From IMG/VR virus record IMGVR_UViG_3300009502_000085, positions 1-45,254 of that record: a DNA stretch of 45,254 bases; one strand, given 5' to 3'. Position numbers and translations under genes: made by a program. The stretch is from a virus. The notes under the pieces were generated by a model, which saw only the letters and a program-made list of their open reading frames with translations, did not search any database and had not been told where the DNA came from. This document shows positions 12,298 to 45,254 of the stretch, one piece after another; the first letter of the stretch is position 1, and the number at the start of each line of letters is the position of its first letter.

Positions 12298-12307
12298 ATT
12301 TTAAAAA

Positions 12308-29933: not shown

Positions 29934-30168
29934 GTTTAATGAGGGTATTGACAGTTTTAACCTGGACAAGGTTGTCAGAAGTATCCAAATGGACAATGGA
30001 GGAAGACTCATTCTTCTGGATGATATCCATGAGCGTGTTCAACAGGTAGAAGTTAAAAACTCTAAAGGTAAAGTAACAGCTATCAAACGTGAGAAGGATG
30101 CTTTTCAAAGTGAGATTCATCTAAATCCTGAAGACTCTAAAAGATTTATTGAACTTACAGCAGTATGA
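29869..30168 (+). CDS. hypothetical protein
   Basis: 99 residues, mixed composition, with DNGGRLILLDDIHERVQQVE and a beta-strand GKVTAIKREKDAFQSEI. It is coupled by ATGA to the glycosyltransferase downstream. No family recognised. It is preceded by an AT-rich leader, and the ATG is well placed. Confidence 0.6.
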   Translation: MNQFYYTRKEVAQPQPGDTEPRFNEGIDSFNLDKVVRSIQMDNGGRLILLDDIHERVQQVEVKNSKGKVTAIKREKDAFQSEIHLNPEDSKRFIELTAV

Positions 30169-30854
30169 AAGTCTTAGTATTTACATCTTCTTATTATAAA
30201 CGTACTTATATGCTTAGACAGTCCATTCTTAGTGGAATGAATCAGAGTTATAAAAATATGATACACTCTATCAATATTACATCTGATGAGACTACTGAGA
30301 CTAAAGACTTTACTCCACTGTATGAGGACCTTAAGGGAAATTTTATTGTTAATCAAAGTGAGAATGCTAAAATAGGATTCTCACACTTTAACAATATGAA
30401 GACTATTAAATTTGTTCCTGATTGGGAAACTTATGATCTCTTTGTAAAGATGGACGATGATGATATTTACAAAAAAGATTATGTGAAAAACATCGTTGAA
30501 CACTTTATTAACAATCCTGGAATAGATGTAACTTCTACAAAAGTTATGTATCAACTTAATGGATACGATCTTCGCTCAAGAGAAGGTGGACTTAATTATG
30601 ATAATTTAGGAGGAAATCCTGAAGGAACAGATTATGCAATGCCTTGCACATTTGCTTTTAATAAAAAAGGATTGGATTCTATCCTGGATCTAACTGAAGC
30701 AGATGTATGTGGACACGATGATATGATGTGGAGAGTTGCCTGGGTTAAAACTGGAATTAAACATTCACTAGTCGATAACTCTGAGGAAGTTATCTGGAAC
30801 ATTCATGGAGGCAATGCCTCAGTAGGATATTTCTTAACAAAAAAAGAGGGTTAA
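30165..30854 (+). CDS. GT-A (family 2-like) glycosyltransferase
   Basis: 229 residues. The N-terminus KVLVFTSSYYKRTYMLRQSI is a GT-A Rossmann strand with the family-2-like R-x2-ML-x2-SI helix. The metal/nucleotide-sugar motif is FVKMDDDDIYKKDYV (an acidic run like DxD). Near the C-terminus GHDDMMWRVAW gives the second acid site. It transfers a sugar to an unknown acceptor, possibly a virion protein or cell-wall glycan. It is the last gene of the rightward block and ends inside a bidirectional terminator. Confidence 0.75.
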   Translation: MKVLVFTSSYYKRTYMLRQSILSGMNQSYKNMIHSINITSDETTETKDFTPLYEDLKGNFIVNQSENAKIGFSHFNNMKTIKFVPDWETYDLFVKMDDDDIYKKDYVKNIVEHFINNPGIDVTSTKVMYQLNGYDLRSREGGLNYDNLGGNPEGTDYAMPCTFAFNKKGLDSILDLTEADVCGHDDMMWRVAWVKTGIKHSLVDNSEEVIWNIHGGNASVGYFLTKKEG

Positions 30855-30870
30855 TTCCCTCTTTTTTTTA
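30841..30870. terminator. bidirectional terminator
   Basis: A perfect 10-bp stem (30841-30850, AAAAAGAGGG, with 30857-30866, CCCTCTTTTT) around TTAATT, with T-runs on both strands, between convergent genes. It contains the stop codons of both flanking genes. Confidence 0.9.
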
Positions 30871-31471
30871 TAATCGATGTGATAGACTGACTTGAATTGT
30901 TTACAATTTCTATGTTGTCAATCTGTTCTAGCAAGAGATTGAAATTCTCAACAACTATGTGATATTGATTATCTTCAGAAATATGTTTATTCTGAAGATC
31001 TTCTAACAATTTCAAGGTGTTATTGTAAGGATTGCTATAATATGATGAATAAAATCCAGGTAACGATGTATGGAGATCTTCTAAAATATATATTCCATTA
31101 GGCTTTAGCTTTTGAAACATTATTTTAAATGTCAACTGCTGTTGTAACATGGTATGTCCTCCATCATCTATCACAAGATCTAGATCCTCAGGAAGAGATA
31201 TTAATTGTTCCTGTTCTTCTTGATTTGCAATAATCGTAGATATTTTTGATGAATCTAGATATGGATATGGATGTATATCTACTCCATATATTTTAGCAAG
31301 TGGAAAGTATTCATTCCACATCATAATAGATGCTCCATTCAAAATACCAATCTCTAACATTCTAATTGGAAGTTCTCTTAAATGAGAAAGCACTCTATCA
31401 TAAGTATCTGTATACCTATGATAGGTTGCTTTGTCAGTATTAAACTTTATACCTATCTCAGTTAAAGTCAT
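30851..31471 (-). CDS. class I SAM-dependent methyltransferase
   Basis: 206 residues. Motif I is IRMLEIGILNGASI, preceded by NTDKATYHRYTDTYDRVL, and followed by MWNEYFPLAKIYGVDI (acidic strand 2), LDLVIDDGGHTMLQQ and GIYILEDLHT. This order matches a methyltransferase family related to sugar or macrolide O-methyltransferases (MycE-like). The substrate may be a sugar attached by one of the neighbouring glycosyltransferases. It overlaps the tiny gene upstream as ATGA and ends at the shared terminator. Confidence 0.78.
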   Translation of the reverse strand: MTLTEIGIKFNTDKATYHRYTDTYDRVLSHLRELPIRMLEIGILNGASIMMWNEYFPLAKIYGVDIHPYPYLDSSKISTIIANQEEQEQLISLPEDLDLVIDDGGHTMLQQQLTFKIMFQKLKPNGIYILEDLHTSLPGFYSSYYSNPYNNTLKLLEDLQNKHISEDNQYHIVVENFNLLLEQIDNIEIVNNSSQSITSIIKKRGN

Positions 31472-31608
31472 TTTGATAACTTTTTACCAGTAAGTGGACT
31501 TTGAGGACTCTTTCCTCTGGTCTTGGCATCGTTCTCCCTCATAAACATGGGCTTCTTTTTAGGAAGAATAGTCACCTTGGGAGCTTTCTTAGGTTTGCCA
31601 CTTATCAT
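31468..31608 (-). CDS. tiny basic protein (46 aa)
   Basis: 46 residues read on the minus strand from ATG 31608 to TGA at 31470-31468, overlapping the methyltransferase start as ATGA. It is Lys/Pro-rich (PKKAPKVTILPKKKP) and ends TGKKLSK. It is in a chain of three coupled tiny basic genes. Such strongly basic peptides in a late region could bind DNA inside the head or the lysis complex. Unrecognised family. Confidence 0.6.
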   Translation of the reverse strand: MISGKPKKAPKVTILPKKKPMFMRENDAKTRGKSPQSPLTGKKLSK

Positions 31609-31697
31609 TTCTTCTTAGCGTTAGACTGTTGCATCCTAAGCTTTTCTTCAGGAGTCCACATCTTGGTTCCTGATTTGGGTTTAGGCTTCTTGTTCAT
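31605..31697 (-). CDS. tiny basic protein (30 aa)
   Basis: 30 residues from ATG 31697 to TGA at 31607-31605, with ATGA overlaps on both sides, so the chain of starts and stops is unbroken. Lys-rich, with KMWTPEEKLRMQQSN in the middle, and ends AKKK. It is too short for domain assignment; coupling is the main support. Confidence 0.5.
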   Translation of the reverse strand: MNKKPKPKSGTKMWTPEEKLRMQQSNAKKK

Positions 31698-31831
31698 TTC
31701 TTCTTAGAAACCTTTGTACCACATTTAGCTGTGGTCCTATAATTAAGGCTCTTGGAAAGATTCTTTGGAGAAGGAGTAGGCATCTTTTTTGCTGTACTCT
31801 TGGAGGGAAGACCAATAGCTGTTTTTTTCAT
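31694..31831 (-). CDS. tiny basic protein (45 aa)
   Basis: 45 residues from ATG 31831 to TGA at 31696-31694. It contains KKTAIGLPSKSTAKKMPTPS and ends CGTKVSKKK. It is basic like its two coupled downstream neighbours and starts 18 bases after the longer Pro/Lys-rich gene. Probably a virion or DNA-binding peptide; no family recognised. Confidence 0.55.
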   Translation of the reverse strand: MKKTAIGLPSKSTAKKMPTPSPKNLSKSLNYRTTAKCGTKVSKKK

Positions 31832-31849
31832 GATTTGAATTTTAAGAGA

Positions 31850-32470
31850 TTAACAACATTTTTTTGTTTTACCACCAGTTTTCATAGGAGGAAGACCTTT
31901 TCTTGCTTTAGAAGAAGTATTAACAGGAGTAGGTTTTTCTGCTGGTTTACCAGGAGGGGTATAATTCGTTCTTGCTGGAACAGTAGCTTTAGCTTGATCT
32001 ATAACATTTTTACCAGATGGACGTTCACTATAAAAACGTGCAGTTTTTGCTGGAGCATGATTTCCTAGTGGAGAAGATGCTGGCTTTCCTGGAGGAGTAT
32101 ATGTTCCTGTAGATGGTGTCTTTGGACCTGATGTAAGTTTAGAAGCAGGACTAGTACTAGCTGCACTTTTAGCAGGAGGTCTATCTCCTAGAGGTTTAGC
32201 TGGAGCTTTCTTTGCAGCTTCTTCCTTAGTCTCAGTGGTATAGCTCTTACCATTATATGTAAAAGTCTTTGCACCAGACGCTTTATTACGTTTGAAGGCT
32301 TCTCCAAAAGATTCAGCTTTCTTCTCAGGAGCTTTAGCTTCAGGAAACTTATTAGGAGGAGATTTAGAATCTTCTTTAGAGTAATTACCTTGACGATCCT
32401 GGTAGTTAGTAGAGATACCATCGTCTGCTTTTTTCTTAAACTTTGCGTTTGCTTTTTTTAGAGTTCCCAT
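31850..32470 (-). CDS. low-complexity Pro/Ala/Lys-rich protein with phage structural motif
   Basis: 206 residues, largely disordered, rich in Lys, Pro, Ala, Ser and Thr. Two copies of a YTPPGKPA repeat occur. A conserved segment ESFGEAFKRNKASGAKTF followed by TYNGKSYTTE resembles a motif (AF-x-A-x3-G-x3-F-x-W/Y-x-GK-x-Y-x-T) found in many phage structural or late proteins. It ends KTKKCC. It may be a minor virion or scaffold-type protein. It is the largest of the basic-protein cluster. Confidence 0.6.
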   Translation of the reverse strand: MGTLKKANAKFKKKADDGISTNYQDRQGNYSKEDSKSPPNKFPEAKAPEKKAESFGEAFKRNKASGAKTFTYNGKSYTTETKEEAAKKAPAKPLGDRPPAKSAASTSPASKLTSGPKTPSTGTYTPPGKPASSPLGNHAPAKTARFYSERPSGKNVIDQAKATVPARTNYTPPGKPAEKPTPVNTSSKARKGLPPMKTGGKTKKCC

Positions 32471-32472
32471 AA

Positions 32473-32613
32473 TTATTTGTTTTTAGCCATTTTTTTAAAT
32501 GTGCGAGCCAATGATTTACGTTTAGGAGTACAAGTAGCCTTAGTCATAGGGGTACAATAACCCTTATGCTTAGGATTAACTGCTCCTTGGATCCAATTTT
32601 TCTTGTCTGCCAT
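32473..32613 (-). CDS. small conserved basic phage protein (46 aa)
   Basis: 46 residues from ATG 32613 to TAA at 32475-32473. It begins MADKKNWIQGAVNPKHKGYC and has PMTKATCTPKRKSLARTFKK. This PMTK-x-TC-TP-x-RK-x-LA-x-T-x-K pattern recurs in small proteins of many phages, so it is under selection. Two cysteines and many Lys/Arg suggest nucleic-acid or metal binding. Function unknown. Confidence 0.65.
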   Translation of the reverse strand: MADKKNWIQGAVNPKHKGYCTPMTKATCTPKRKSLARTFKKMAKNK

Positions 32614-32620
32614 AACATTT

Positions 32621-32884
32621 TCATTTTTTAACTGTTAGCTTTGCCTGCATAAATTCATCTTTAGGATCTGGAATTTCAAGAACAACACCATCTTCAACAG
32701 CTTTAACCATAAGGTTTTCAAACACATTGTTAGCTTTTTCAAGAGCTAAGATACGTTGAGCTTCAGGAGTTCCCATGATACCTCTAATGGCATTAAGGAT
32801 TATTCCAAATTGATCTCCAGTAAGTTCGAACTTGTCATCTGGTATCCAGGTGTAACGTTTTGCAGGATTGTAAATTTGAGACAT
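32621..32884 (-). CDS. conserved phage hypothetical protein
   Basis: 87 residues from ATG 32884; the longer in-frame extension overlaps the upstream gene and is rejected. It begins SQIYNPAKRYTWIPDDKF, followed by GDQFGIILNAIRGIMGTPEA and a C-terminal helix and strand. This arrangement is seen in small phage virion-region proteins. No function is established. Confidence 0.65.
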   Translation of the reverse strand: MSQIYNPAKRYTWIPDDKFELTGDQFGIILNAIRGIMGTPEAQRILALEKANNVFENLMVKAVEDGVVLEIPDPKDEFMQAKLTVKK

Positions 32885-32903
32885 AATAATATAATTTGTT
32901 GGT

Positions 32904-33185
32904 TTATAATTCAATTGAGAAGGCCAGCACTCCTGAGGTTTTAATGCTCTTGGAGATATCAAGCCTAATGTTGAAGATGTTATGTAGTTTGAGGATTTCC
33001 TTGAGCAACATATCGTTGTATTTAGGAACACTTGGAGCTAGTCTGAAATGATAAGCTTTAGGGGCTTTCACGATTTCAAGACTTGCCAACTCATCTACAG
33101 AACTTAAGACCCCTTCCAGGTGTGCAAAATAATTTTCTTCGTTATCAAGCAATATTGCTGGAAAGAACCTTCGATTGATTTGCAT
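32904..33185 (-). CDS. hypothetical protein
   Basis: 93 residues, mixed alpha/beta. It includes a hydrophobic N-terminus (RRFFPAILLDNEENYFAHL), VDELASLEIVKAPKAYHFRL and a C-terminal amphipathic helix and strand. Its start overlaps the last base of the ferritin-like gene. No known domain. Confidence 0.6.
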   Translation of the reverse strand: MQINRRFFPAILLDNEENYFAHLEGVLSSVDELASLEIVKAPKAYHFRLAPSVPKYNDMLLKEILKLHNIFNIRLDISKSIKTSGVLAFSIEL

Positions 33186-33598
33186 TACGACAATGTTAAA
33201 AGATATTTAGTCTTGGAGGCTTCACCTGACAAACTCTGAGCTATATTCTCAATGTCTGGCATGTTGTTACTCCCTGCATAACTTTCTAGTTGTCTAGCAA
33301 ATATAAGTAATTCGTTGACAACTTGTGTCGATAATCCTGAAGAATAATTTTTAATAGGATCCACAGGCATAGCTTTTGTTCTAATGCCTGTGTATCCCAT
33401 CATTTTCTCAACTATCTCATCCTTCAGATCGAATACTTTATCGTATAGACTACCAAGAGCCATATGTTCTGCGTAGCTCTTTGTCTGCCAATGCAACTCG
33501 TGGATTTGCAGTTCGAAGTAGTTCATCTTAGCCTTTACACTATCTAAAGATAATGTTCCAGCATTAAGCATTTCTTTAGGAAATAGAGACTCTGCCAT
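33185..33598 (-). CDS. ferritin-like/Dps-fold phage protein (DUF5856-like)
   Basis: 137 residues, all helical. The N-terminal helix NYFELQIHELHWQTKSYAEH resembles Dps/ferritin-type helices with a His-x2-HW motif, followed by HMALGSLYDKVFDLKDEIVE and KMMGYTG, the features of the DUF5856-like phage proteins. Whether it binds iron is unknown; His residues, a Glu and an Asp lie at plausible ligand spacing. It sits among virion and adsorption-related genes. Confidence 0.6.
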   Translation of the reverse strand: MAESLFPKEMLNAGTLSLDSVKAKMNYFELQIHELHWQTKSYAEHMALGSLYDKVFDLKDEIVEKMMGYTGIRTKAMPVDPIKNYSSGLSTQVVNELLIFARQLESYAGSNNMPDIENIAQSLSGEASKTKYLLTLS

Positions 33599-33603
33599 AA
33601 TAA

Positions 33604-33843
33604 TTAACCTCCACCCCTAGTAGTTGTTGTACTAGTCGTAGTACTAGTCGTAGTACTAGTCGTAGTAGGTGCTGCTGTAGTTGTAGTAGTGGTAGTGGTT
33701 GGGTTACAGCATTCGTAAGCTTGGATTTCCATCCACTTACCAACCTTAGGCATCTTTCTACGAAAAATAAGACTGCCAGCAACCACTCTGCCCTGTCCAT
33801 CGAAACGAACATAGGCTTTAAGTTTCCTGTCGAGACTTCCCAT
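33604..33843 (-). CDS. small protein with Thr/Ser-rich tail
   Basis: 79 residues. Residues 1-47 form a compact domain (GSLDRKLKAYVRFDGQGRVV, FRRKMPKVGKWMEIQ, then CC). Residues 49-75 are almost only Thr with some Ser, Ala and Pro, encoded by direct repeats of a GTA-CTA-GTC-type unit (about 33616-33699), ending RGGG. Such tails are typical O-glycosylation acceptors, and a glycosyltransferase gene lies immediately upstream. The domain may be a virion decoration. Confidence 0.7.
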   Translation of the reverse strand: MGSLDRKLKAYVRFDGQGRVVAGSLIFRRKMPKVGKWMEIQAYECCNPTTTTTTTTAAPTTTSTTTSTTTSTTTTRGGG

Positions 33844-33848
33844 AATAA

Positions 33849-34883
33849 TTAATAGTTTAAGTGATATTTGTCAAACAATTCTTTCAGCTCTTTAACATAG
33901 TACCAGCTGCAGTACTTTTTACTATCTTCATTCTCAAATACAAAATTGATTTGAGGATCTGTAAACGGATCCTTTCCACTATGGTACTTCCCTTTGTAGA
34001 ATGTAGGATATGAGAAAGTCTCACTTACCTTCATTAACTCACTGGAGATACCAGCATTGTGATAAATAGGATGTGTTTCCAATCTATCAATAGTATCTGT
34101 TGCCCAACTAAATCCCATCTCAGGAACTACTTTAGGGGCAACATCTCTTAACCATAAATTCCAAAGAACGGACCACATATCAGCACACCAGCTTTGAAAG
34201 CCTTTATTCTCACTCTCAAAGAACTCTTTATTAATGTGTTGGAGATAGGTACGAATTACTAAACAGTCGTTCATTACCTTACTCCAAAACTTAGCATCTA
34301 TGTTCTTTAATAAATACTGTGCTCCTCCAGAATTGAGATTATGCTCTTCAGCTATCTGTCTGTTGACACCTATTAGGCTTGTAACTTCAGCGAGAACATC
34401 CCTAGTAGCATATTCTTCTTTTTTTTCTAGTAGAACATCATGCACTTTACTATCAAAATAGCTTGCATTAATGTAGCTATTTGTGTCTGATACGTAGTTA
34501 ATATCATCTTCTATGAGAGCATCAATGTTGAATCTTTCACTGAATACAATATCACAATCACAATAGAAGATAGCATCAGCAACCCTTTTAGGATTTGCTT
34601 TAAAGTATCTCCATAGGACATAAGGACGCAACACTGAAACATAAATTCCTAGTAGAGGGGTTATGTCATGATCGTCTGTATAAAACACAAATTCTGCCTC
34701 AGGATACAACTCATTAATTCGTTGCCATTTTGGTAGATCTGGAGTTCTGTCTTTAGGAGTAAACACCAGGACTATTGCATCCTTTGAGTGATTAATCTTC
34801 TTAAGACTCTCTAGCCATAGATGAACTTGCCATGTGTAGTAAGTATCATCTGGCTGAGCACAGATAAATTTGAGATCTCTCAT
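33849..34883 (-). CDS. GT-A-type glycosyltransferase
   Basis: 344 residues. The DxD motif appears as FYCDCDIVF (about residues 107-115), preceded by DDHDITPLLGIYVSVLRPYV and RYFKANPKRVADAI, and followed by LNSGGAQYLLKN and a C-terminal WSVLWNLWLRD and HNAGIS region. This arrangement is typical of sugar transferases with a GT-A fold. The substrate is unknown; the genes on both sides encode Thr-rich-tail proteins, which are candidate acceptors. It is 31 bases from the upstream gene. Confidence 0.75.
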   Translation of the reverse strand: MRDLKFICAQPDDTYYTWQVHLWLESLKKINHSKDAIVLVFTPKDRTPDLPKWQRINELYPEAEFVFYTDDHDITPLLGIYVSVLRPYVLWRYFKANPKRVADAIFYCDCDIVFSERFNIDALIEDDINYVSDTNSYINASYFDSKVHDVLLEKKEEYATRDVLAEVTSLIGVNRQIAEEHNLNSGGAQYLLKNIDAKFWSKVMNDCLVIRTYLQHINKEFFESENKGFQSWCADMWSVLWNLWLRDVAPKVVPEMGFSWATDTIDRLETHPIYHNAGISSELMKVSETFSYPTFYKGKYHSGKDPFTDPQINFVFENEDSKKYCSWYYVKELKELFDKYHLNY

Positions 34884-34914
34884 ATGTAGTTGGTTTTAAA
34901 ATTTCAAATGAACA

Positions 34915-35112
34915 TTAGGGCATAGCAGTAGTAGTTGTACTGGTTGTTGATGTAGTAGTGCTAGTAGTTGTACTAGTTGTAGTACTGGTGGTAGTAGTAC
35001 CATTAGCTACAACTTTACCTACTAAACCAATCAGTTGTTCCATTTGTTTTGATATGTTCCATAACTGCTGTGATATTGGATCTTGTCCAGTGGGTCTTGA
35101 TGGTATTGTCAT
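34915..35112 (-). CDS. small protein with Thr/Ser-rich tail
   Basis: 65 residues. The N-terminal half is a short helix (QDPISQQLWNISKQMEQLIG); residues 40-62 are only Thr and Ser (about 34927-34995), ending AMP. The composition mirrors the 33604 product, with repeated TTTS units. The GT-A gene lies next to it. It might be a minor virion peptide carrying sugars. Confidence 0.65.
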   Translation of the reverse strand: MTIPSRPTGQDPISQQLWNISKQMEQLIGLVGKVVANGTTTTSTTTSTTTSTTTSTTSTTTTAMP

Positions 35113-35143
35113 AATTAATATTTTTAATTATTTATCAAATTTA

Positions 35144-35650
35144 CTAAATGTTTATATACATTGTTCCAGGTATGAAATCTTTTTGATTATATTTATCCAG
35201 TAGGGTTGACCAATGATTTCCAAAAGTCTTCTCGAAATGAGGTTTGTCCCCCCATGATTCCCCCCAGGTCCATCCATGGTTCTGGAATATCTCAACAATT
35301 TCCATCCAGTCTGGTGTACCATCTTCATCAAAATCTTTTGCTGTATCCCAGGAAGCTGTTACTCCAGATATGAGAACTATGTCAAGAGCGAGGCCATAGT
35401 TATGATAGGATTGACCACCTTTAGCATTTGTTACTACTCCTAATCTATTACCAGCATTATCAAATAGTTTAGTCCTTCCCTGGGCATAGAGAGCATCCTG
35501 CTCTGCAAAATTTCTTAATGTATAGGCGAATCTACAATAGGTATCACTTTCTAATGCTGGAACTATCTCATTGAGATAGATTCCTTCTACTTCTGTTATT
35601 AGTTTGGGATGTAGAAGTTTGATTCGATTGAGTGTGGTTTGATCGATCAT
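35144..35650 (-). CDS. M15 family peptidase endolysin
   Basis: 168 residues. It matches the L-Ala-D-Glu/D-Ala-D-Ala peptidase family M15: RNFAEQDALYAQGRT at residues 46-60, first zinc ligands in SYHNYGLALDI (His83 and Asp90), and the last in GDKPHFE (His138). Between them, residues 106-115 read DFDEDGTPDW, an EF-hand-like DxDxDG calcium loop, as in some M15 phage endolysins. It has no signal peptide, so it needs the holin encoded next to it. The two genes overlap by ATGA. Confidence 0.88.
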   Translation of the reverse strand: MIDQTTLNRIKLLHPKLITEVEGIYLNEIVPALESDTYCRFAYTLRNFAEQDALYAQGRTKLFDNAGNRLGVVTNAKGGQSYHNYGLALDIVLISGVTASWDTAKDFDEDGTPDWMEIVEIFQNHGWTWGESWGDKPHFEKTFGNHWSTLLDKYNQKDFIPGTMYINI

Positions 35651-35874
35651 GATTTATTTTGTATTAATGTCATCGCAGAACTGCCTAATATAAGACTCAT
35701 TAAGCTATAGATAATAGGAGGGTCAATCGTAACCTTACGAAATACACTGTATAATATAATTATACAATACATCAGCAAAGCTATTAAAGCAATAAACCTT
35801 TTACTTGATTCAGGTTTCTCAGAATTAATCAGATCTTTTAAATACTGTATCATTTTCCTAAATGTATTTTCCAA
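35647..35874 (-). CDS. probable holin
   Basis: 75 residues with two hydrophobic segments, at about 27-45 (FIALIALLMYCIIILYSVF) and 52-70 (PPIIYSLMSLILGSSAMTLI), linked by a short basic loop, with charged N- and C-termini. The size and topology fit a two-TM holin, which opens the inner membrane for the endolysin. Its gene overlaps the endolysin start by ATGA, a normal lysis-cassette order. It overlaps the upstream gene by 25 bases. Confidence 0.7.
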   Translation of the reverse strand: MENTFRKMIQYLKDLINSEKPESSKRFIALIALLMYCIIILYSVFRKVTIDPPIIYSLMSLILGSSAMTLIQNKS

Positions 35875-36458
35875 TACGATTGGATGCCAAATTGTAACTC
35901 TCCATGTATATTTATTCCTGTGTATATACCATAGAGTTGGTCTTTCTTATTCTTAAGCATTATTCCAGCATTGATTTGACTAACTGGATTAATTAGACTG
36001 CCTTGTAGAGATCCTCCTATGTATAATTGATTTCGTGATGGGGGAGGAAGTGTAATTGTTTTAGTTATAATTGGATATTTTAGATTGTAACTAAACATTC
36101 TATTTGTTAATTTATTCCTGGCTAGGGTATCTGTTACATATACAAACCCTATGCTATCGACTTTAAGTGTGTCTTTGTATACATTCTTTCTGAAATATAG
36201 ATCTAAGAGATCTGTATATTGTTTTCTTAGTCGAACACAATTTGTGTCTGGAACAAATGTAGGTGGTACTTCTTCAGGTTTTGTATAGACGATGTGAGGT
36301 TTACCAGGCACAGTGTCAGTATGATTAACCCATACAGTATCTATATGGATTGTAGGTTTTGCAGGCTCAGGTTTAGGTTGATTACATCTACTGAGGATTA
36401 ATAAGACTACAAGTAGTCCTATGATTAAAAACAAAAAGTTCTGTTTTATAAAGTTCAT
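35850..36458 (-). CDS. spanin candidate (envelope protein)
   Basis: 202 residues. The N-terminus has a hydrophobic segment (residues 9-25) ending in LILSRCN, which could be a lipobox-type cysteine or simply a TM end. A Pro-rich periplasmic linker follows (PTIHIDTVWVNHTDTVPGKP), and the C-terminal 65 residues are beta-rich (IGGSLQGSLINPVSQINAG, QLYGIYTGINI). One-protein spanins in Gram-negative phages join both membranes, so this fits by place and layout in a holin/endolysin cassette. Alternatively it is a lipoprotein. Confidence 0.45.
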   Translation of the reverse strand: MNFIKQNFLFLIIGLLVVLLILSRCNQPKPEPAKPTIHIDTVWVNHTDTVPGKPHIVYTKPEEVPPTFVPDTNCVRLRKQYTDLLDLYFRKNVYKDTLKVDSIGFVYVTDTLARNKLTNRMFSYNLKYPIITKTITLPPPSRNQLYIGGSLQGSLINPVSQINAGIMLKNKKDQLYGIYTGINIHGELQFGIQSYWKIHLGK

Positions 36459-36556
36459 GATAATAATTTATCAATTTCTACAGAATACTCATCTGTAATA
36501 TCTACTTCAATTATTCTCTGAGAAGTCTTCTCAACCAATTCATCAACCTCTGACAT
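36455..36556 (-). CDS. tiny protein (33 aa)
   Basis: 33 residues from ATG 36556 to TGA at 36457-36455, coupled by a stop/start overlap to genes on both sides. It is acidic and helical (EVDELVEKTSQRIIEVDI). It may be a small regulator or a translated spacer. Support is from coupling only. Confidence 0.4.
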   Translation of the reverse strand: MSEVDELVEKTSQRIIEVDITDEYSVEIDKLLS

Positions 36557-36909: not shown

Positions 36910-36911
36910 AT

Positions 36912-37330: not shown

Positions 37331-40300
37331 ATGCCAACCAGTTACAACTTCTTTAAACAAGAGATCAAACAATGGTTTCTTGAGAACATTCCTACCTCTA
37401 AAAGGATCCTGGATGTAGGTCCAGGAGAAGGAACTTATGCTACTCTACTTCATTCTATAGGATATAGAATTGATGCTGTCGAAGTCTACGAACCTTATGT
37501 ACAACAGTTTGGTCTTAGACGTAAATATGATAATGTTTACGTCAAGGATATTCTAAATTTTGACATACAGGATTATGATGTGATTATCCTTGGTGATGTA
37601 CTAGAACATCTTGACATACCTTCTGCAAAAGAACTAATCTGGAAAATTAAAAAACACAACAAGCAATGTGTGGTTGCTGTACCATACACGATGCCCCAGG
37701 GAGAAGTTGATGGAAATATACACGAGGCACATCTGCAGGAAGATCTAACTCCTGAAGTAATGACGTTGCGTTACCCAGAACTTAGGTGTCTGTATAGTAA
37801 TGAGCATTACGGATATTACGAACTTCCAGACCCTAAACTGGAAAAAGCATTTGTATTATATGCAACGATTAATTATCTAAAGACAGTTGAAGGGGCTGTA
37901 AATGCTCTGAAAGCAGTTAGTAAGATTCCTATCATTGTATATCTGATGGATGGCTATTTAGAGATAGAAGGGGCAACTGTTGTTCGATGGGAATGTAATG
38001 TTGCAAACCTTCCACAAGGAGAATTCATAGACAGATCAGTGTCGTGTCTTTATAAGATGATGATACAACGACCTCTTATTGTAAAAGATGCCCTACAGAA
38101 ATATGCCAAAATTGTAGCTTATATAGACTCTGATTCTGTAGCAACAACGTATGCAGATCGTATATTTGAACTTGCCAGGACAACAAAAGGAATTCCTTAT
38201 TTTACAGAAGGAATATATGATTTTATGTTTTCAAATGGTAAAGGAGGAGTTGATCCAAGTGAACGTCTTGAAGTTCCTTCTTGTAAATTATTTAATGTAC
38301 CTATCACAAATCAATCATATAGACAAACAGGATATTTTGTAGCCAGTGAACACTCTATTTCATTTTTGGATGAATGGAGTTGGATGTGTAATCATCCAGA
38401 AGTATTAAAGAATCCCCAATGGTATGCTCCTTTTCATGAGGAAACAATTCTTAACGTATTACTTTGGAAGTATAATATTACAAGTGGTCTTCCGTTAGTT
38501 TATATGAATATAAGATTAGATAATCTGGATAAAGTATTAAAAAATCCTCAATGGGGAAAAGAGACTGATATGTGGATAAAGTATCCAGAAAAATCTGAGA
38601 ATCTTTTATTCTATCATGGAGAGAAAAACCTTGATAACATGAACAAAATGATTTGTGTACAACCACAGATGAAGAAATCAATGAGGGTACTGTTCTTAGC
38701 ACCTCATCTATCTACAGGAGGGATGCCTGCGTTCCTTCTGAAACGTATAGAAAGCCTTCTGAATTATGATGTGGAGATTTTTGTGGTTGAATGGCAATGT
38801 GTCAGTGGTGATTTTGTTGTTCAGAGAAACGCTATAATGAAATTAGTTAGTAATTTTTACACTCTTGGAGAGGATAAGTACGAACTAATGAAAATTATTA
38901 AAGATAACGAAATTGATGTAGTTCACATTGATGAGATGATAGAGCATGTTGGTAATTGTCCTTTCAGGTTAATGAGCCAGCTTTATGCCAATGACAGGAC
39001 CTGGAGAATTGTAGAGACCTGTCACAATGTTGTATTCAAACCTGATACAGAGAAAAAGTTTAATCCTGATGCTTATGCCTTCTGTACTCCTTATCATATG
39101 GAAGTGTTTAAGAATATGCCTTCCTACAAAGAGGTTATACAATTTCCTATTGATAACAATACCCATAAGGTATGGGATAAAGGAGAAATTAAGAATCTTC
39201 TTGGAATGGAGAAGGGAAAGAAACATGTCCTTAACGTAGGACTTTGGACCAAGGGGAAGAACCAGGGAGAAGGATTAAGGATTGCCAGTAGATATCCAGA
39301 TATGCAGTTTCACTTTGTAGGAAACAGAGCTGGAAACTTCCAAGATTATTGGAAACCTCTTATAGAACATCTTCCTTTGAATGTTACAATATGGGATGAG
39401 AGGGCTGACGTTGAATTATTCTACCAGGCTGCAGACATCTTCATGTTTAATTCTACATTTGAATGTAGCCCTTTGGCTCTTCGTGAAGCTATTGGATATG
39501 GATTACCTATCGTTGCCAGGGATTTAAAAGAGTATGGAGACATGTTTACTCCTTACTTGCAATCTCTTGATACTGACCTAAATATAATCGAGCGAGAATA
39601 CGATATTCCTGAGGATTGTACAACAGATTTATTTGGTGGACTTCACAACGAGTTATACTTACGATTACAGAATAAAGAAGTGGTAATTTCCAACGTAACT
39701 GTTTCACCTGTAAAGATCACTCAGCATTTTGTAGATTATCCTTTCCTTGAGATAACAGGACCTAGTGATAAGATGTATAGAGTAGAATTTTATGATGAGA
39801 ATGAATTGTGTCATTATAGCACTACTATTGAATCAAATCATTGGGTAAGACTTGATCGTAGATATTTCATCAAATGGACTGCCAAGGTATGGGAGAATGA
39901 CATCCTGATTTATCAAAAGACCCTCGACTTTACAGGACAACGTGTATTCATATCATTTGATAGTTCTTCCTTAGGAGATAATATTGCATGGATACCATAC
40001 GTTTTGAAATTTAAGGAGAAACACAATTGTCATGTGATAGTATGTACGTTTAAGAATGCTCTGTTCAAGAGTGTCTATCCAGAACTTGAATTCGTAGAGC
40101 CAGGATCAACTGTTCATAACATCATAGCTCAATATAAAATTGGCTGGCATTATGATCCATTGAGAGAACCTGAGGTGCCTAACACTATTTCTCTGCAGAA
40201 GTGTGCTAGTAACATTCTAGGACTTGAACATGAAGAGATTCAACCAAGGATAGCTTATAAGATAAACAAACTTCCTACGTCAAAACCTTATGTAACAATT

Positions 40301-40771
40301 GCTACAAATAGCACATCTGGTTGTAAGTTCTGGCAGAAGGAAGATTGGCAGAAAGTTATTGATTGGTTACATGGGAAAGGATATGAGGTAATCAATGTTT
40401 CCAAAGAGAAAAATGAGTTCAGTCATACCACACAACTCTTTGATGATTCCTTAGGAAACACAATGAATGTTATTCATCATAGTAAACTCTTGATAGGACT
40501 CTCTAGTGGTTTATCCTGGTTAGCCTGGGGAATGGGAAAACACACAATCATGATCTCTAACTTTACAGAAAAAGATCATGAATATGTTTCAAACTGTACA
40601 CGAATTGTTGATACCACTGTCTGTCATGGATGTTGGAACAGACCTGATATCAAGTTTGATAAAGGGGATTGGGATTGGTGCCCTATTCACAAAGGAACTT
40701 CTAGACAATGGGAATGTCAGAAAGCTATAACAGGAGAACAAGTAATTGAAAAACTTCAGAATTTACTATAA
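37331..40771 (+). CDS. four-domain methyltransferase and glycosyltransferase fusion
   Basis: 1146 residues. Residues 20-165 form a class I SAM methyltransferase (RILDVGPGEGTYATLL, VIILGDVLEHLD). Residues 175-430 form a GT-A-like domain with AKIVAYIDSDSV as DxD. Residues 448-780 form a GT-B transferase of family-4 type (VLFLAPHLSTGGMPAFLLKR, then NVGLWTKGKNQGEGL, FECSPLALREAIGYGLPIVA). Residues 880-1146 resemble bacterial autotransporter O-heptosyltransferases (GT9-like): SFDSSSLGDNIAWIPY, SSGLSWLAWGMGK, then four Cys (1098, 1101, 1117, 1129) in CHGC, WCPIHKGT and WEC. The substrate is unknown. The protein stands alone between two leftward blocks, with a terminator after it. Confidence 0.85.
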   Translation: MPTSYNFFKQEIKQWFLENIPTSKRILDVGPGEGTYATLLHSIGYRIDAVEVYEPYVQQFGLRRKYDNVYVKDILNFDIQDYDVIILGDVLEHLDIPSAKELIWKIKKHNKQCVVAVPYTMPQGEVDGNIHEAHLQEDLTPEVMTLRYPELRCLYSNEHYGYYELPDPKLEKAFVLYATINYLKTVEGAVNALKAVSKIPIIVYLMDGYLEIEGATVVRWECNVANLPQGEFIDRSVSCLYKMMIQRPLIVKDALQKYAKIVAYIDSDSVATTYADRIFELARTTKGIPYFTEGIYDFMFSNGKGGVDPSERLEVPSCKLFNVPITNQSYRQTGYFVASEHSISFLDEWSWMCNHPEVLKNPQWYAPFHEETILNVLLWKYNITSGLPLVYMNIRLDNLDKVLKNPQWGKETDMWIKYPEKSENLLFYHGEKNLDNMNKMICVQPQMKKSMRVLFLAPHLSTGGMPAFLLKRIESLLNYDVEIFVVEWQCVSGDFVVQRNAIMKLVSNFYTLGEDKYELMKIIKDNEIDVVHIDEMIEHVGNCPFRLMSQLYANDRTWRIVETCHNVVFKPDTEKKFNPDAYAFCTPYHMEVFKNMPSYKEVIQFPIDNNTHKVWDKGEIKNLLGMEKGKKHVLNVGLWTKGKNQGEGLRIASRYPDMQFHFVGNRAGNFQDYWKPLIEHLPLNVTIWDERADVELFYQAADIFMFNSTFECSPLALREAIGYGLPIVARDLKEYGDMFTPYLQSLDTDLNIIEREYDIPEDCTTDLFGGLHNELYLRLQNKEVVISNVTVSPVKITQHFVDYPFLEITGPSDKMYRVEFYDENELCHYSTTIESNHWVRLDRRYFIKWTAKVWENDILIYQKTLDFTGQRVFISFDSSSLGDNIAWIPYVLKFKEKHNCHVIVCTFKNALFKSVYPELEFVEPGSTVHNIIAQYKIGWHYDPLREPEVPNTISLQKCASNILGLEHEEIQPRIAYKINKLPTSKPYVTIATNSTSGCKFWQKEDWQKVIDWLHGKGYEVINVSKEKNEFSHTTQLFDDSLGNTMNVIHHSKLLIGLSSGLSWLAWGMGKHTIMISNFTEKDHEYVSNCTRIVDTTVCHGCWNRPDIKFDKGDWDWCPIHKGTSRQWECQKAITGEQVIEKLQNLL

Positions 40772-40777
40772 TATGAT

Positions 40778-40810
40778 AAAGGGTACGCTAATATAACGTA
40801 CCCTTTTATT
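40778..40810. terminator. bidirectional hairpin terminator
   Basis: A perfect 10-bp stem (40778-40787, AAAGGGTACG, with 40797-40806) and a T-rich tail (TTTATTTTT) on the + strand, between convergent genes. On the - strand its T-run is shorter, so termination from that side may be weaker. Confidence 0.85.
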
Positions 40811-40815
40811 TTTCA

Positions 40816-41253
40816 TCATCCCTCTACAGAAGATTCCTCTACTATTGGAATTTCAGGTTCAATAGTAACAGCTTGAGAAGCAGTTGTATAAAGTGGTGTA
40901 AGCATTTCTACAAGAGCAACCCTCTCAGCAATAAGTTCATCTACTTTAGGTTTAGCCAATAACACATCTGCTTCTAAGGAAGCAAGGGTACCTTTAGCTT
41001 CTTCAACAAGCGTAGCTAATTGTGTTTGTAAAGTGATGAAAGAATTCTTCTTGATGTCAGAAAGTACAAGTTTCCAATTGTTATTAATCCATTCTGCCAG
41101 ATATTTAGCAATGACAGGGCCTCCTGAGACGTCTATCTGATTACTAGGTTCAACTTTTTCATTGTACCATACAGTAACTTTATGGGTTACAGATAATTCT
41201 GTTGCATTCTGTAACTGTGTGTATTCTTGTTTTAAAAGATCAATTTTTTCCAT
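40816..41253 (-). CDS. small tail-region protein, possible fibre chaperone
   Basis: 145 residues, mostly helical with long coiled stretches (LQTQLATLVEEAKGTLASLE) and an acidic end (PEIPIVEESSVEG). The N-terminus MEKIDLLKQEYTQLQNATEL followed by WYNEK matches that of the 36-residue frame just upstream. It is the last gene of the adsorption operon, a typical place for a tail-fibre assembly protein. No specific family recognised. Confidence 0.55.
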   Translation of the reverse strand: MEKIDLLKQEYTQLQNATELSVTHKVTVWYNEKVEPSNQIDVSGGPVIAKYLAEWINNNWKLVLSDIKKNSFITLQTQLATLVEEAKGTLASLEADVLLAKPKVDELIAERVALVEMLTPLYTTASQAVTIEPEIPIVEESSVEG

Positions 41254-41266
41254 GATGTATATTATA

Positions 41267-41377
41267 TTAAAGGATTTGATGAACGTTATACCACTTTTGA
41301 ACGATTGCAGTAGCGGTGAGTGTTGTTTGAGCTTTGAGGATTTCGAGGTCTGATTTGAGTTTGTTGATTGCTTCCAT
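41267..41377 (-). CDS. tiny protein (36 aa), partial paralogue of the 40816 gene
   Basis: 36 residues from ATG 41377 to TAA at 41269-41267. It reads MEAINKLKSDLEILKAQTTL and then VQKWYN, which aligns with MEKIDLLKQEYTQLQNATEL and VTVWYN of the next gene downstream. It looks like the remnant of a duplicated first domain, or a short paralogue. No other support. Confidence 0.45.
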   Translation of the reverse strand: MEAINKLKSDLEILKAQTTLTATAIVQKWYNVHQIL

Positions 41378-41429
41378 AATATTGAGTTTTAAATTGTTTG
41401 CTATGTTGGATTATCTTCGATAGATTGGG

Positions 41430-43277
41430 TTAATTGGTGTCGTTAAGTAATTTATTTTCATCAGCATCTAATACCCGACTCCAATATTTAACACTATTAA
41501 TTCTGCCATTAAAATAATATGTACCATCTGATGGGGATAATCCAAAAATGACCCTTGCAGTATTAGAAAATGATGTAAATCCAGACCCAGCAATGATTGT
41601 GGTTGTGGTTGTGACAGCCAACCCATTAATATAAAATTGACCTAATAATCCACTTTTAAAGGTATATGTAAGCGTGTAATCTATATTTGGAGAAATGACC
41701 CCAGTATTTGAATTAGAGTATTGAAAACTAGCCGTTCCTCCGCTATTAAATAAATAGATCGTTACTTGTCCGGTTGTCATATTTATTAGAATTGTATATT
41801 CTCTTTTACCTACTTCGTCTCTGGTAAGTAACGTGTGATACCCCGATGTTCCAATACATCTAAATTTTACACTAATTGTGAAATTGCTATTTGGTAAAAA
41901 ATTCATTACCCCATAATCCAAATACGAAGATGACCCATTAAAATACGTCGCCCCCAGATTACTCGCTGGCGGAATAACAGGCGTTGCCCCTACTACTGTT
42001 GCCTCATGGTTATTGGTTAAATCCAGCCAATACCCAGCGTTATAAGCTAGGGTCGAAGGGTTTTTGGCTAATCCTGAGGGGGAGAGATCGAGGCAGCAGC
42101 CTGCCTGTTTAACTGAATAATTATCAATCTGACCACTCCATGATGTGTTAGCAACTAATCCAACATAAACAGATGTAGCTAATCCAGTATATGACTTTAC
42201 ACCAGACGTCGTTATTGCTCCAGCAAACAATCCACTATACATGGTTAGATATGACCCGTCAACCGTATGCGTAATCGTAAATGTTTCATTGTATTTTTTG
42301 CCAACTGTTAAAAAGTTATTTTTATACAACGAATGGCCTGATCCATTAACGCAATATGCCTGTCCGTCATGTATAGACCATCCCCCATCTTTAGACCACC
42401 ATGTATCAGAAGCAAAGTCTGTGTTTCCAATCAATTCGGCAGTAGATGTAATCCTATCCACCGCTTCTATCGGATACTCTGGACGGGAGTAGTTGGCTAT
42501 TTGGGTAGGGGTGAGGGTGTAGTTGAAGATGCGGCACATGGAGATGGAGCCCTGAAGTGGGTAGTATGTTCCATAGGTTGCTAATGTACCTAAAGTAAGC
42601 GAGGCTGTATAATTTACATTATCGGTAATTCCACTATTAGTTATGTCGGTAATTAATGTGCCTACATTAGAGGTTCTTTTATATATCAATGTATTAAGCC
42701 CAACGTGAATTTGCCCATAATCACCTATTGGACTACCTCCAGTATTTGTAAGTTTTATCGTCCCATTGGAATTTATAAGCAAAGCTAATGCCCCAACACC
42801 TCCCCCAGTTATGGCATAAAGAGTAGATGGCAGTGATGTAATATTGAATTGCACAATTACCGTAAAATCTCCAGTCCCAAAAGCAGGAATATTCGGTAAC
42901 GAAACATAATCACTGCTGCCATTAAACGAAAAGTACCGATTACTTCCACTTCCTTGTCTGTCGGGGACGTTGTAGGTTGCTGTCTGTATCCCTACTGCCT
43001 TACTTACCTGATCAACATATCCATAGTTCTGCTCCCTTAACACACTTGCATGATCCCAATGTGTAGGTGTAGTTCCCGTTGCCACAAACTTAATCCCTGT
43101 TGCATTACTCGCAGCACCTACATTAGTGAAATCATCATTAGTATTATAAGTTACTATTAAATAGGATCTCCCAGAAACTAATGACCCACTTGTTAATAAT
43201 GGTCCTGGAACTACTGACCATTCATCTAATGATGCATGAAAAATTAATCCTTTTTGAAGTTCGCTTATTTGATTCAT
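41430..43277 (-). CDS. LamG-type lectin tail/adsorption protein
   Basis: 615 residues. Two concanavalin-A-like (LamG/laminin G) domains are visible: about residues 90-270 (FSFNGSSDYVSLPN, TGDFTVIVQFN, SISMCRIFNYTLTPTQIANY) and about 430-615 (ATYFNGSSSYLDYG, NSNFTISVKF, GRINSVKYWSRVLDADEN). Between them lies a beta-rich carbohydrate-binding-like domain (IGNTDFASDTWWSKDGG, NYSVKQAGC). It probably binds surface sugars of the host. The gene looks richer in G and C than its neighbours, which suggests recent exchange of the host-range module. Confidence 0.8.
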   Translation of the reverse strand: MNQISELQKGLIFHASLDEWSVVPGPLLTSGSLVSGRSYLIVTYNTNDDFTNVGAASNATGIKFVATGTTPTHWDHASVLREQNYGYVDQVSKAVGIQTATYNVPDRQGSGSNRYFSFNGSSDYVSLPNIPAFGTGDFTVIVQFNITSLPSTLYAITGGGVGALALLINSNGTIKLTNTGGSPIGDYGQIHVGLNTLIYKRTSNVGTLITDITNSGITDNVNYTASLTLGTLATYGTYYPLQGSISMCRIFNYTLTPTQIANYSRPEYPIEAVDRITSTAELIGNTDFASDTWWSKDGGWSIHDGQAYCVNGSGHSLYKNNFLTVGKKYNETFTITHTVDGSYLTMYSGLFAGAITTSGVKSYTGLATSVYVGLVANTSWSGQIDNYSVKQAGCCLDLSPSGLAKNPSTLAYNAGYWLDLTNNHEATVVGATPVIPPASNLGATYFNGSSSYLDYGVMNFLPNSNFTISVKFRCIGTSGYHTLLTRDEVGKREYTILINMTTGQVTIYLFNSGGTASFQYSNSNTGVISPNIDYTLTYTFKSGLLGQFYINGLAVTTTTTIIAGSGFTSFSNTARVIFGLSPSDGTYYFNGRINSVKYWSRVLDADENKLLNDTN

Positions 43278-43366
43278 TCTTTTATATTATAAAGGTTAAT
43301 ATAATATTGAAATTGTTCAATGTTTGTTTAAATGTTTCTTGTATCATTATTATTTTATATAATTTA
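43278..43366 (-). other. AT-rich spacer between adsorption genes
   Basis: 89 bases without a gene, almost all A and T. It may hold a promoter or leader for the lectin gene; no defined hairpin is seen. Confidence 0.4.
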
Positions 43367-43873
43367 TTAAAAACTACGAATAGCTCTAACTCTAAAAGGA
43401 GATTCTTTATCTGCCTCATGTAAACCTCCTCTAAAATTTTGTTCCCATGCAGTATTAGAATCATTTTGACTTGAGGACCAATAATAATCTCCTACAGTAA
43501 ATCCACCAATAAGATTTTGGTTTTGAAATAATTTAACTAATTCATCTTTAGAGGGCAAATACCAATCAGTATAACCACCTTCAGATAAATCACCACACAA
43601 TCTTGCTGCTATTCCAGCAGTTGCACAACCAGTCATAATGTCAATAGTATTTTGATTACCAGTTCCTATTGTAGTGTCATTTGCTCCTGTTATTAAAGTA
43701 CCTTTACATCCCCACTCAGCTCCAGCAGAAGTATCGGCAACAGTAGCAACAAGACCATGTTGAGTTCCAATTTCATATCCAGGATCGCCAACCTGTAGAA
43801 TATATGCAATTTTACCACCTAATGCTGCCTGACCAATTACATATTTTCTTTTAGAAATATAATTTAGTCTCAT
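43367..43873 (-). CDS. DUF1566 / Lcl C-lectin-like protein
   Basis: 168 residues. It has the DUF1566 signature: GGKIAYILQVGDPGYEIGTQ, HGLVA, GNQNTIDIM, CGDLSEGGYTDWYLPSKDEL, YYWSSSQND and RVRAIRSF, a C-type-lectin-like fold found at the C-terminus of surface proteins including the Legionella collagen-like adhesin. Probably displayed on the virion for sugar or surface binding. It overlaps the upstream collagen-like gene's stop by ATGA. Confidence 0.82.
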   Translation of the reverse strand: MRLNYISKRKYVIGQAALGGKIAYILQVGDPGYEIGTQHGLVATVADTSAGAEWGCKGTLITGANDTTIGTGNQNTIDIMTGCATAGIAARLCGDLSEGGYTDWYLPSKDELVKLFQNQNLIGGFTVGDYYWSSSQNDSNTAWEQNFRGGLHEADKESPFRVRAIRSF

Positions 43874-45254
43874 GTTCTTTTGATTTTAAGACTTCCACGA
43901 ATTAATGTAGGAGCACCAGTATAAGAAGTGTTGGTTACTAACACAACCTTGTCTGTAGCTACAACAGTATTCGCACCAGTAGCTGCAGTATAGTCTCTTG
44001 AAGTGTCTACAGTGAGCGTAGTGAGACTAGTAATATCTGTTGAGTTAATCTTGATATGAACATCAGTGAGAGTACCAGTGTCAACTTCTAACACTATCCC
44101 CTCAACGGTATATCCATAAAAAGCATAAAGGTCAAGTTCATATGTCTGTGATGTTCCCGCTGTAAGATCCCTGAATTCGAATGGAAGAGCTTCAATAAGT
44201 CCTTTCATAGAACAAGAACCAATGTCTATCTTAAGTGTATTCACTCCTCCTGATCCATCAGATAAAGCAGATACCTTAAACAATCTCTGTCCAGCTACTG
44301 TAATGCTTACCCCATGTTCTGTTCCACTAGGAGAGGAAGCATCAATAGGAATATCTACTATATCGTGTAGAGGAGCATTTAATACATCATAGAAACTGTC
44401 TATCCCTATAGGATTAGCAAATTCAACAACATTATCTTTGGATAATTTTACAAGATTAGCAGGATTTCCTGCATAATCATATGTAGGAAGCCATTTGTCA
44501 TTTAATAGAGGGAAGACAGACATTCCACTCGTTCCTGCTGTACCACTTGTACCAGTAGTACCAGAGGTACCTGAACTACCTGATGTACCTGTAGTGCCTG
44601 AAGTACCTGACGTAGCAGAGGAACCACTAGAACCACTTGTACCTGTTGTCCCACTGGTAGCAGAGGTGCCACTAGATCCTGATGTACTGCTAGATCCTGA
44701 ACTGCCACTAGTACCAGTAGTACCTGATGTTCCACTAGTTCCACCTGTACCATTAGTTGCTGATGTTCCACTACTTCCTGATGTAGAAGAAGTGCCACTA
44801 CTTCCACTTGTGCCAGTAGTTCCAGAAGTAGCACTGGTTCCACTTGTGCCAGTTGTACCTGATGTTCCACTGCTACCAGAACTTCCACTAGTTCCAGCTG
44901 TGGCTGATGTACCTGATGTACCACCTGTACCATTTGTTGCACTAGTGCCTGAAGTACCTGTTGTACCACTCGTTCCTGAGGTTCCTGTTGTACCTGAAGA
45001 TCCTGCTGTAGCACTAGTACCAGAGGTTCCACTTGTAGCATTGGTTCCACTGGTTCCACTAGTTCCAGTAGTCCCTGAAGTACCATTTGTACCATTTATT
45101 CCACTACTTCCAGATGTGCCACTTGTCCCAGTTGTACCTGATGTAGCAGATGATCCGCTACTACCAGAAGTACCAGTAGTTCCACTCGTAGCAGAAGTAC
45201 CACTTGTTCCACTTGTTCCATCAGTGCCAGAGGTACCTGTAGTTCCAGACGTAC
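43870..45254 (-). CDS. collagen-like Gly-Thr-Ser repeat fibre protein (partial)
   Basis: The frame is open from the right edge of the window leftwards to the stop at 43870-43872, giving at least 460 residues. From the edge to 44524 it is a repeat of Gly at every third residue, mostly GTS, GSS, GTT, ATS, GTN (about 243 residues). A C-terminal domain of 217 residues follows (SVFPLLNDKWLPTYDYAGNP, then beta-rich). The Met at 44523 is inside the protein, not its start. It is probably a trimeric collagen-like tail fibre; the Ser/Thr-rich repeat is a candidate glycosylation acceptor. The N-terminus is outside the window. Confidence 0.82.
   Translation of the reverse strand, partial: TSGTTGTSGTDGTSGTSGTSATSGTTGTSGSSGSSATSGTTGTSGTSGSSGINGTNGTSGTTGTSGTSGTNATSGTSGTSATAGSSGTTGTSGTSGTTGTSGTSATNGTGGTSGTSATAGTSGSSGSSGTSGTTGTSGTSATSGTTGTSGSSGTSSTSGSSGTSATNGTGGTSGTSGTTGTSGSSGSSSTSGSSGTSATSGTTGTSGSSGSSATSGTSGTTGTSGSSGTSGTTGTSGTAGTSGMSVFPLLNDKWLPTYDYAGNPANLVKLSKDNVVEFANPIGIDSFYDVLNAPLHDIVDIPIDASSPSGTEHGVSITVAGQRLFKVSALSDGSGGVNTLKIDIGSCSMKGLIEALPFEFRDLTAGTSQTYELDLYAFYGYTVEGIVLEVDTGTLTDVHIKINSTDITSLTTLTVDTSRDYTAATGANTVVATDKVVLVTNTSYTGAPTLIRGSLKIKRT
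44524..45254 (-). repeat. GTS triplet repeat coding tract
   Basis: About 731 bases of nine-base units encoding Gly-(Thr/Ser)-(Ser/Thr/Asn/Ala) triplets on the minus strand. The codons of neighbouring units vary, so the tract is kept by protein selection rather than by recent slippage alone. A parallel frame on the same strand reads as Val/Leu/Gln/Pro-rich and is only a shadow. Confidence 0.9.

Follow-up and report, generated by a model that had tools for sequence, protein, structure and literature searches.

A phage-encoded TibC-type fusion enzyme and its probable role in O-glycosylation of a Ser/Thr-type collagen-like fibre

Several described systems attach sugars to repetitive surface proteins or to virion proteins, and they provide the frame for the locus treated here, which lies on the 45,254-base virus contig IMGVR_UViG_3300009502_000085 from IMG/VR (the whole stretch analysed, hereafter the window), a fragment of a tailed phage. 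The element in question is gene 37331 (genes are named by their lowest coordinate), which encodes a fusion enzyme ending in a TibC/AAH-like domain. It is read here as probably a protein O-glycosyltransferase with which the phage modifies its own Ser/Thr-type collagen-like fibre. The closest described system is that of the BAHT family (TibC/AAH autotransporter O-heptosyltransferases; TIGR04414, PDB 4RAP), in which, as at this locus, a Ser-rich repetitive surface protein is encoded near the transferase. The partner of TibC and AAH is a Ser-repeat beta-helix autotransporter, whereas the neighbour of 37331 is a collagen-like G-T/S-S fibre. In addition, the phage-encoded protein has the domain fused C-terminally to GT-B, GT-A and methyltransferase domains, with a donor-contacting Arg replaced and a thumb tip deleted.

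Glycans are also found on the bacterial collagen-like stalk in BclA-type systems (Bacillus exosporium; SgtA in C. difficile), as proposed here for the phage fibre, although these rely on other glycosyltransferases and belong to spores rather than to phages. The BclA repeats are of the GPT type and contain proline. In the collagen glycosylation of Mimivirus, a giant virus of amoebae, the target is hydroxylated lysine and the enzyme is unrelated. According to PMC8968730, glycosylation of the BclA collagen is thought to aid the hydration network and stability, and Mimivirus, by hydroxylation and glycosylation (Luther et al. 2011, as cited there), is an example of a virus that modifies collagen-like proteins of its own. 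Glycans on phage structural proteins have precedent in the glycosylated virion proteins of mycobacteriophages (Freeman et al. 2023, as cited in PMC12619734); the mycobacteriophage system differs in involving capsid and tail-tube C-termini, other enzyme families and actinobacterial phages. Among the papers searched, pairing the TIGR04414 family name with 'phage' returned none on the link.

The first-pass annotation of the window, made from sequence alone, had likened the C-terminal domain of 37331 to enzymes that O-glycosylate Ser/Thr repeats of autotransporters. This likeness is borne out, as the domain scores 259.2 bits against TIGR04414, for which the NCBIfam cut-off is 200, and its best PDB match is TibC itself (4rap, E 3.7e-45). 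In TibC, Asp110 is the catalytic base, Thr226 and Lys230 bind the donor phosphate, Trp305 is a donor residue and Arg286 contacts the adenine, while a beta-hairpin thumb with an F265/V266 tip helps to build a dodecamer ring and four Cys form an iron finger (PMC4358343). The equivalents in 37331 are D883 (D110), T995 (T226), K999 (K230) and W1063 (W305), with the iron-finger cysteines at C1098, C1101, C1117 and C1129; catalytic Asp, phosphate-binding Thr/Lys, Trp and iron finger are thereby shared with the BAHT enzymes, as is the family score. The equivalents of D110, K230, W305 and the four Cys are identical in 45/45 aligned homologues and that of T226 in 44/45; the motif search that retrieved these homologues selects conservation at its own motif positions, and Asp883, Lys999, Trp1063 and the cysteines, used for the comparison, lie outside the motifs. 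S1058 occupies the position of TibC P300, being Ser as in AAH. Judged from its residues, the domain is apparently an active TibC/AAH family member, whose donor and assembly are possibly different.

The other domains claimed for 37331, namely methyltransferase, GT-A and GT-B, were recovered as well (PF13489, Foldseek and PF00534, respectively; Table 1). The GT-A-like stretch (residues 172-462) has no Pfam match. Its AlphaFold model (predicted local distance difference test, pLDDT, 88) resembles GT-A enzymes, GT6 first and glycogenin (GT8) too (Foldseek E 6e-8), and D95 of this domain is invariant and D97 nearly invariant in the homologue alignment. Among the 45 homologues the core of GT-B and TibC domains is mostly kept (PF00534, GT4, in 42/45), and the N-terminal modules vary: a methyltransferase is found in about 12, FkbM in 3, a pyruvyltransferase in 2 and PIG-L in 1, and some proteins carry none. 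The methyltransferase is therefore an optional module of the family, present in only about a quarter of its members.

Regarding the candidate acceptors, the Ser/Thr-rich stretches listed by the first-pass annotation exist, both as TTTS tails (33604 and 34915) and as the GTS repeat at 44524-45252, the latter matching the Collagen family (PF01391). Uninterrupted Gly-X-Y runs reach 11 triplets in the window and more than 100 in relatives. The window repeat is written in mixed synonymous codons, which rules out its reading as a DNA microsatellite and indicates that it is maintained at the protein level. Over the 9,541 triplets of the fibres at TibC-type loci, X is Thr in 62% and Ser in 28%, Y is Ser in 79%, and proline accounts for less than 0.5%. 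Gly-X-Y runs in random viral loci are of another type, G-x-Q, with Gln at Y in 73%, and the domain was absent from the 11 tested random-phage records with such collagens. Phage collagens can accordingly be grouped into two chemically distinct types, G-x-Q (loci L124, L130, L160, L175 and others, where no TibC-type enzyme was found) and G-T/S-S, usually accompanied by it.

A survey of related phages for co-occurrence of GTS fibres and 37331 homologues, as suggested beforehand, gave positive results at several levels. Domain-bearing records of at least 50 kilobases (kb; n=44) were scored for five consecutive G-[ST]-[ST]-type triplets (pattern GGN WSN WSN, which also lets in Cys, Trp or Arg codons) and compared with a random set (n=38), in which the viral contigs measured 35 kb or more and had been selected through an arbitrary 14-mer. 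The repeat occurs in 41/44 domain-bearing records versus 0/38 random contigs (Fisher 6e-20); homologues of 37331 in phages lacking a Ser/Thr-rich protein, which had been named as evidence to the contrary, are thus mostly not seen, with LR756504 as a case in which they are. Starting from the opposite end, 19 of 30 contigs chosen for the repeat alone carry the domain, versus none of the same 38 (Fisher 2e-9). Lineage was controlled for with 30 primase-related records, the primase alignment having been adopted after a marker based on endonuclease 13292 gave only 4 relatives. In these phages a loose repeat pattern is present in 4/5 with the domain and in 0/25 without it (Fisher 2e-4), and direct reading reveals a Ser/Thr collagen stretch in all five domain-bearing relatives; the looser pattern and direct reading were added since the strict pattern overlooked imperfect fibres (G108, G109, G115). 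The stretch adjoins the enzyme gene in these three, lies about 6 kb off in G113 and, provided that the contig is circular, spans the contig ends in G116. Where the full 10 kb is available, the repeat lies downstream in 30/39 loci (median 1.7 kb), and upstream in 4/52.

The three domain-bearing records without the strict repeat are a contig ending 324 bases past the enzyme match, a carrier of a Thr-Pro repeat, and LR756504. Big Thr-Pro repeat proteins (TPTNTPTQTSTPT) are encoded near the TibC-type gene in L031, L034, L045, L048 and L055, phages without a nearby Gly repeat, and are possible alternative acceptors. As for the repeat-bearing contigs without the domain, GT4 (PF00534) was considered as a substitute enzyme and rejected, being found in 3/11 of them versus 8/38 random contigs, no clear enrichment. 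Two bacterial contigs that are Gly-Ser-rich near a TibC-like gene were not counted: the stretch of L109 is part of an open reading frame (ORF) whose sequence overlaps with the end of an mnmA-like gene, and L110 showed no clear fibre gene.

At least 534 viral loci encode the domain in one scan, as against only 4 contigs when 84,980 genomes of bacteria and archaea were covered; because the motif search favours the phage clade, these counts indicate that the clade is viral, not that BAHT enzymes are rare in bacteria. The main viral clade forms one group in the domain tree, whose branches are long and whose deep order is unsure. Outside this clade branch L014 (a TGA=Trp phage), L025 (Microcystis phage Mel-JY01) and L026 (a 735-kb phage), each with the repeat nearby, and in L014 and L025 the repeat is on the enzyme's strand, unlike in the main clade. 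In Mel-JY01, an isolated phage, the TibC-type protein is encoded at PP395634.1 4750-8430, and its Ser/Thr collagen stretch lies some 5 kb upstream. Domain and repeat are linked repeatedly, in unrelated settings and with differing gene arrangements. In L014 (IMGVR_UViG_3300025659_000002, 10001-14413) the TibC-type gene contains TGA in frame 16 times, in several cases where Trp is conserved, and is free of stops once TGA is read as Trp; together with L015-L020, L014 belongs to a large phage group, with contigs up to 205 kb, that has apparently recoded TGA in this way.

From the domain family and its adjacency to GTS fibres in many related phages, it follows that these phages probably sugar-coat their own fibres. 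Direct support comes from the domain folds and families, the catalytic and iron-finger residues, the interchangeable N-terminal tailoring modules, and the co-occurrence and adjacency with Ser/Thr collagen. What we infer is the relation between enzyme and acceptor, the sequence in which the steps occur, the kind of sugar and the advantage gained. In the host cytoplasm, before or during fibre trimerisation, the TibC/AAH-like domain would place the first sugar on hydroxyl groups of Ser (or Thr) in the Gly-Thr/Ser-Ser repeats. The glycan would afterwards be extended or capped by the fused domains, namely GT-B, GT-A and, in the present phage, the methyltransferase. Given that the repeat is almost proline-free, the sugars would probably stabilise and shield the rod, as is thought for BclA.

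Modules such as GT4, GT-A, pyruvyltransferase, FkbM and PIG-L are typical of polysaccharide clusters and the enzyme adjoins fibre genes, features that could also belong to an enzyme altering the host O-antigen or capsule for superinfection exclusion, with the fibre link reflecting a shared, exchangeable host-recognition island. Such hitch-hiking is improbable: the constant C-terminal domain comes from a family acting on protein Ser, not on lipids or polysaccharides (PMC4358343), and the link is specific to Ser/Thr collagens, not to the G-x-Q collagens of random phages, and persists when the gene arrangement differs. Hypermodification of phage DNA bases, a role often presumed for phage glycosyltransferases (PMC12619734) and compatible with the presence of methyltransferases, is more improbable by far, since the family is one of protein O-glycosyltransferases and the Ser/Thr collagen co-occurrence would be left without a reason; nor is there a hydroxymethylpyrimidine-type enzyme among the PHROG matches of the window, a fragment of which part of the ORFs were scanned.

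Against the reading of 37331 as a fibre O-glycosyltransferase several points have to be set. It is based on sequence, models and co-occurrence. Viral records are frequently fragmentary and to some extent redundant: when grouped at 90% domain identity, the 44 records fall into about 30-34 groups, of which one is wholly negative. The 636-kb phage LR756504, whose domain is the most divergent, is a genuine exception in having the domain without the repeat, and 11/30 repeat-bearing contigs, some of them fragments, lack the domain. Because domain and fibre lie close together in one genome region, co-transfer may account for part of the association. At the position of TibC Arg286 the window has T1044, and Thr is found in 39/45 homologues, so that the adenine contact is not kept (the state in bacterial family members is taken from PMC4358343 alone). 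The thumb insert with its F265/V266 tip is a gap in the alignment of 37331 with TibC and in nearly all phage rows. These two losses bear on the donor nucleotide and the oligomeric state: with the adenine-contacting Arg replaced, heptose is uncertain as the donor sugar and another nucleotide is possible, and with the thumb tip deleted the enzyme may not form a dodecamer ring. A narrower form of the proposal, in which the C-terminal domain uses ADP-heptose exactly like TibC/AAH, would agree with the equivalog-level TIGR04414 score, the retained phosphate-binding Thr/Lys and Trp, and the AAH-like Ser at the P300 position; the change of Arg286, whose role is described in PMC4358343, to Thr would allow another nucleotide and makes this form doubtful.

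Collagen-like fibres are a common feature of phages from the environment. How a stable rod is built from a nearly proline-free Gly-Thr-Ser repeat lacks explanation, a question to which a dedicated glycosyltransferase partner is a testable answer. It is conceivable, at slightly short of an even chance, that the fibre O-glycosyltransferase represents an unrecognised and widespread modification system, in which the phage TibC-like clade densely O-glycosylates proline-free Ser/Thr collagens, replacing hydroxyproline as the triple-helix stabiliser, and lineage-specific tailoring modules (methyl, pyruvyl, extra sugars, deacetylase) vary the outer glycan as fibre tips vary host range. Its scope would comprise aquatic and large phages, with more than 500 IMG/VR loci on contigs up to several hundred kb, including the TGA=Trp phage. 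If so, many environmental virions would bear sugar-coated fibres, with effects on adsorption, protease resistance and recognition, and a protein-modification role would be added for phage glycosyltransferases, which are usually assumed to target DNA or host lipopolysaccharide. The enzyme also points to a compact tool for glycosylating collagen-like proteins.

Table 1. Features of the window, with the match or model on which each assignment is based (aa, amino acids; SAM, S-adenosylmethionine).
Feature	Position	Strand	Basis or remark
TibC-type fusion enzyme: methyltransferase + GT-A + GT-B (GT4-type) + TibC/AAH-like O-glycosyltransferase	37331..40771	+	single ORF, 1146 aa
N-terminal SAM-methyltransferase domain, residues 1-170	37331..37840	+	PF13489, residues 16-98, E 1.3e-8
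GT-A domain, residues 172-462, DSDS (DxD) motif	37844..38716	+	AlphaFold and Foldseek
GT-B domain, GT4-type, residues about 463-800	38717..39730	+	PF00534, residues 619-741, E 3.6e-9
TibC/AAH-like domain	39773..40768	+	TIGR04414, residues 815-1144; Pfam GT9-like match, residues 972-1075
Collagen-like fibre protein, C-terminal part (gene runs beyond the window)	43870..45252	-	PF01391, 84 bits; tail-fibre PHROGs 5073/1806
G-T/S-S repeat of the fibre	44524-45252	-	followed by a 217-aa C-terminal domain
Laminin_G_3 (lectin-like) protein between enzyme and fibre, likely virion/fibre component	41430..43277	-	PF13385, 1.1e-15
Lcl_C domain protein	43367..43873	-	PF07603, 9e-11; fused to module A in relative L046
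Module-A protein (KLKAYVRFDG...AYECC, 48 aa) with TTTTTTTTAAPTTTSTTTS tail, candidate acceptor	33604..33843	-	homologues in 27 loci
GT8-like glycosyltransferase (phrog_4417)	33849..34883	-	AlphaFold pLDDT 92; Foldseek glycogenin, E 4e-6
Module-B protein (IPSRxxGxxxxxxLWxISKQxE) with TTTS tail, candidate acceptor	34915..35112	-	homologues with TTT, GTS or folded tips
Methyltransferase	30851-31471		phrog_21658, 6e-29; Methyltransf_24, 2e-5

Apart from 37331, the window encodes a further enzyme of interest, 33849, which has no Pfam or PDB match at the sequence level. Its earlier designation as a glycosyltransferase stands on the strength of the predicted structure, which resembles glycogenin, UGGT and WbbM and indicates a GT8-like GT-A fold with a DxD motif (D109/D111 invariant). 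The gene is placed between two Thr-rich proteins, an order retained in many relatives, and is next to the module-A/T-rich gene in most related loci. It is present in 11/12 close primase relatives irrespective of whether a TibC-type enzyme is encoded, and therefore constitutes a separate, lineage-core module. Homologues over nearly the full length form the phrog_4417/prophage pi2 protein 34 family, whose members in Firmicutes phages sit in the head and tail gene region, either following the major capsid gene or preceding tail genes, whereas 33849 lies beside Thr-rich module-A/B proteins. The location of the Firmicutes homologues suggests a virion target, and 33849 could tentatively be regarded as a second, independent virion glycosyltransferase, perhaps for the TTTS tails. 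In the Enterococcus/Lactobacillus phages phiFL2B, iLp84 and 9183 (L360-L362), phrog_4417 is annotated as unknown or even as a major tail protein; by homology to 33849 these proteins have a GT8-like fold, and virion glycosylation may take place there too.

Modules A and B are small N-terminal plug-in bases (compared in L005, L046, L077 and L107 besides the window), onto which different C-terminal parts are swapped: Thr-rich tails, GTS repeats, Lcl_C, an S74-like tip and other folded domains. In the module-A homologues these are Thr-rich tails or folded tips including Lcl_C.

The first-pass annotation had counted three glycosyltransferase genes and two SAM-methyltransferase domains and had suggested that these form one self-contained system. 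Both methyltransferases are confirmed (30851 by phrog_21658, 37331 by its PF13489 domain), and so are the glycosyltransferases 33849 and 37331, whereas 30165 (30165-30854) has only a marginal GT2 match (E 0.003, under the Pfam cut-off). The self-contained system itself is not supported, owing to the independence of 33849 and to the fact that 30165 and 30851 are not conserved neighbours of the enzyme: none of the TibC-type loci compared has a homologue of 30165, and only five have one of 30851. The methylated sugars and the immune evasion suggested there are conjectural. That 30165, 30851, 33849 and 37331 jointly put methylated sugars on GTS and TTTS fibres is, for these same reasons, very unlikely, even though all lie inside 15 kb and the TibC-type protein of Mel-JY01 holds a stretch 30% identical to 30851.

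With regard to the genome context, rIIA/rIIB and DNA-metabolism genes are encoded on the plus strand of the contig, which also carries UvsX, and the enzyme/fibre locus sits in a mostly minus-strand part. The primase resembles its counterparts in crAss-like, Flavobacterium and Cellulophaga phages, in most cases with 25-34% identity, and on the basis of this resemblance the host is likely a member of the Bacteroidota. A low-complexity Lys/Pro/Ser-rich protein of 206 aa, without any family match, is encoded at 31850-32470. At 33185-33598 lies a gene for a Dps/starvation-inducible-like protein (phrog_858), which about 22 related loci retain in the same virion-gene region.

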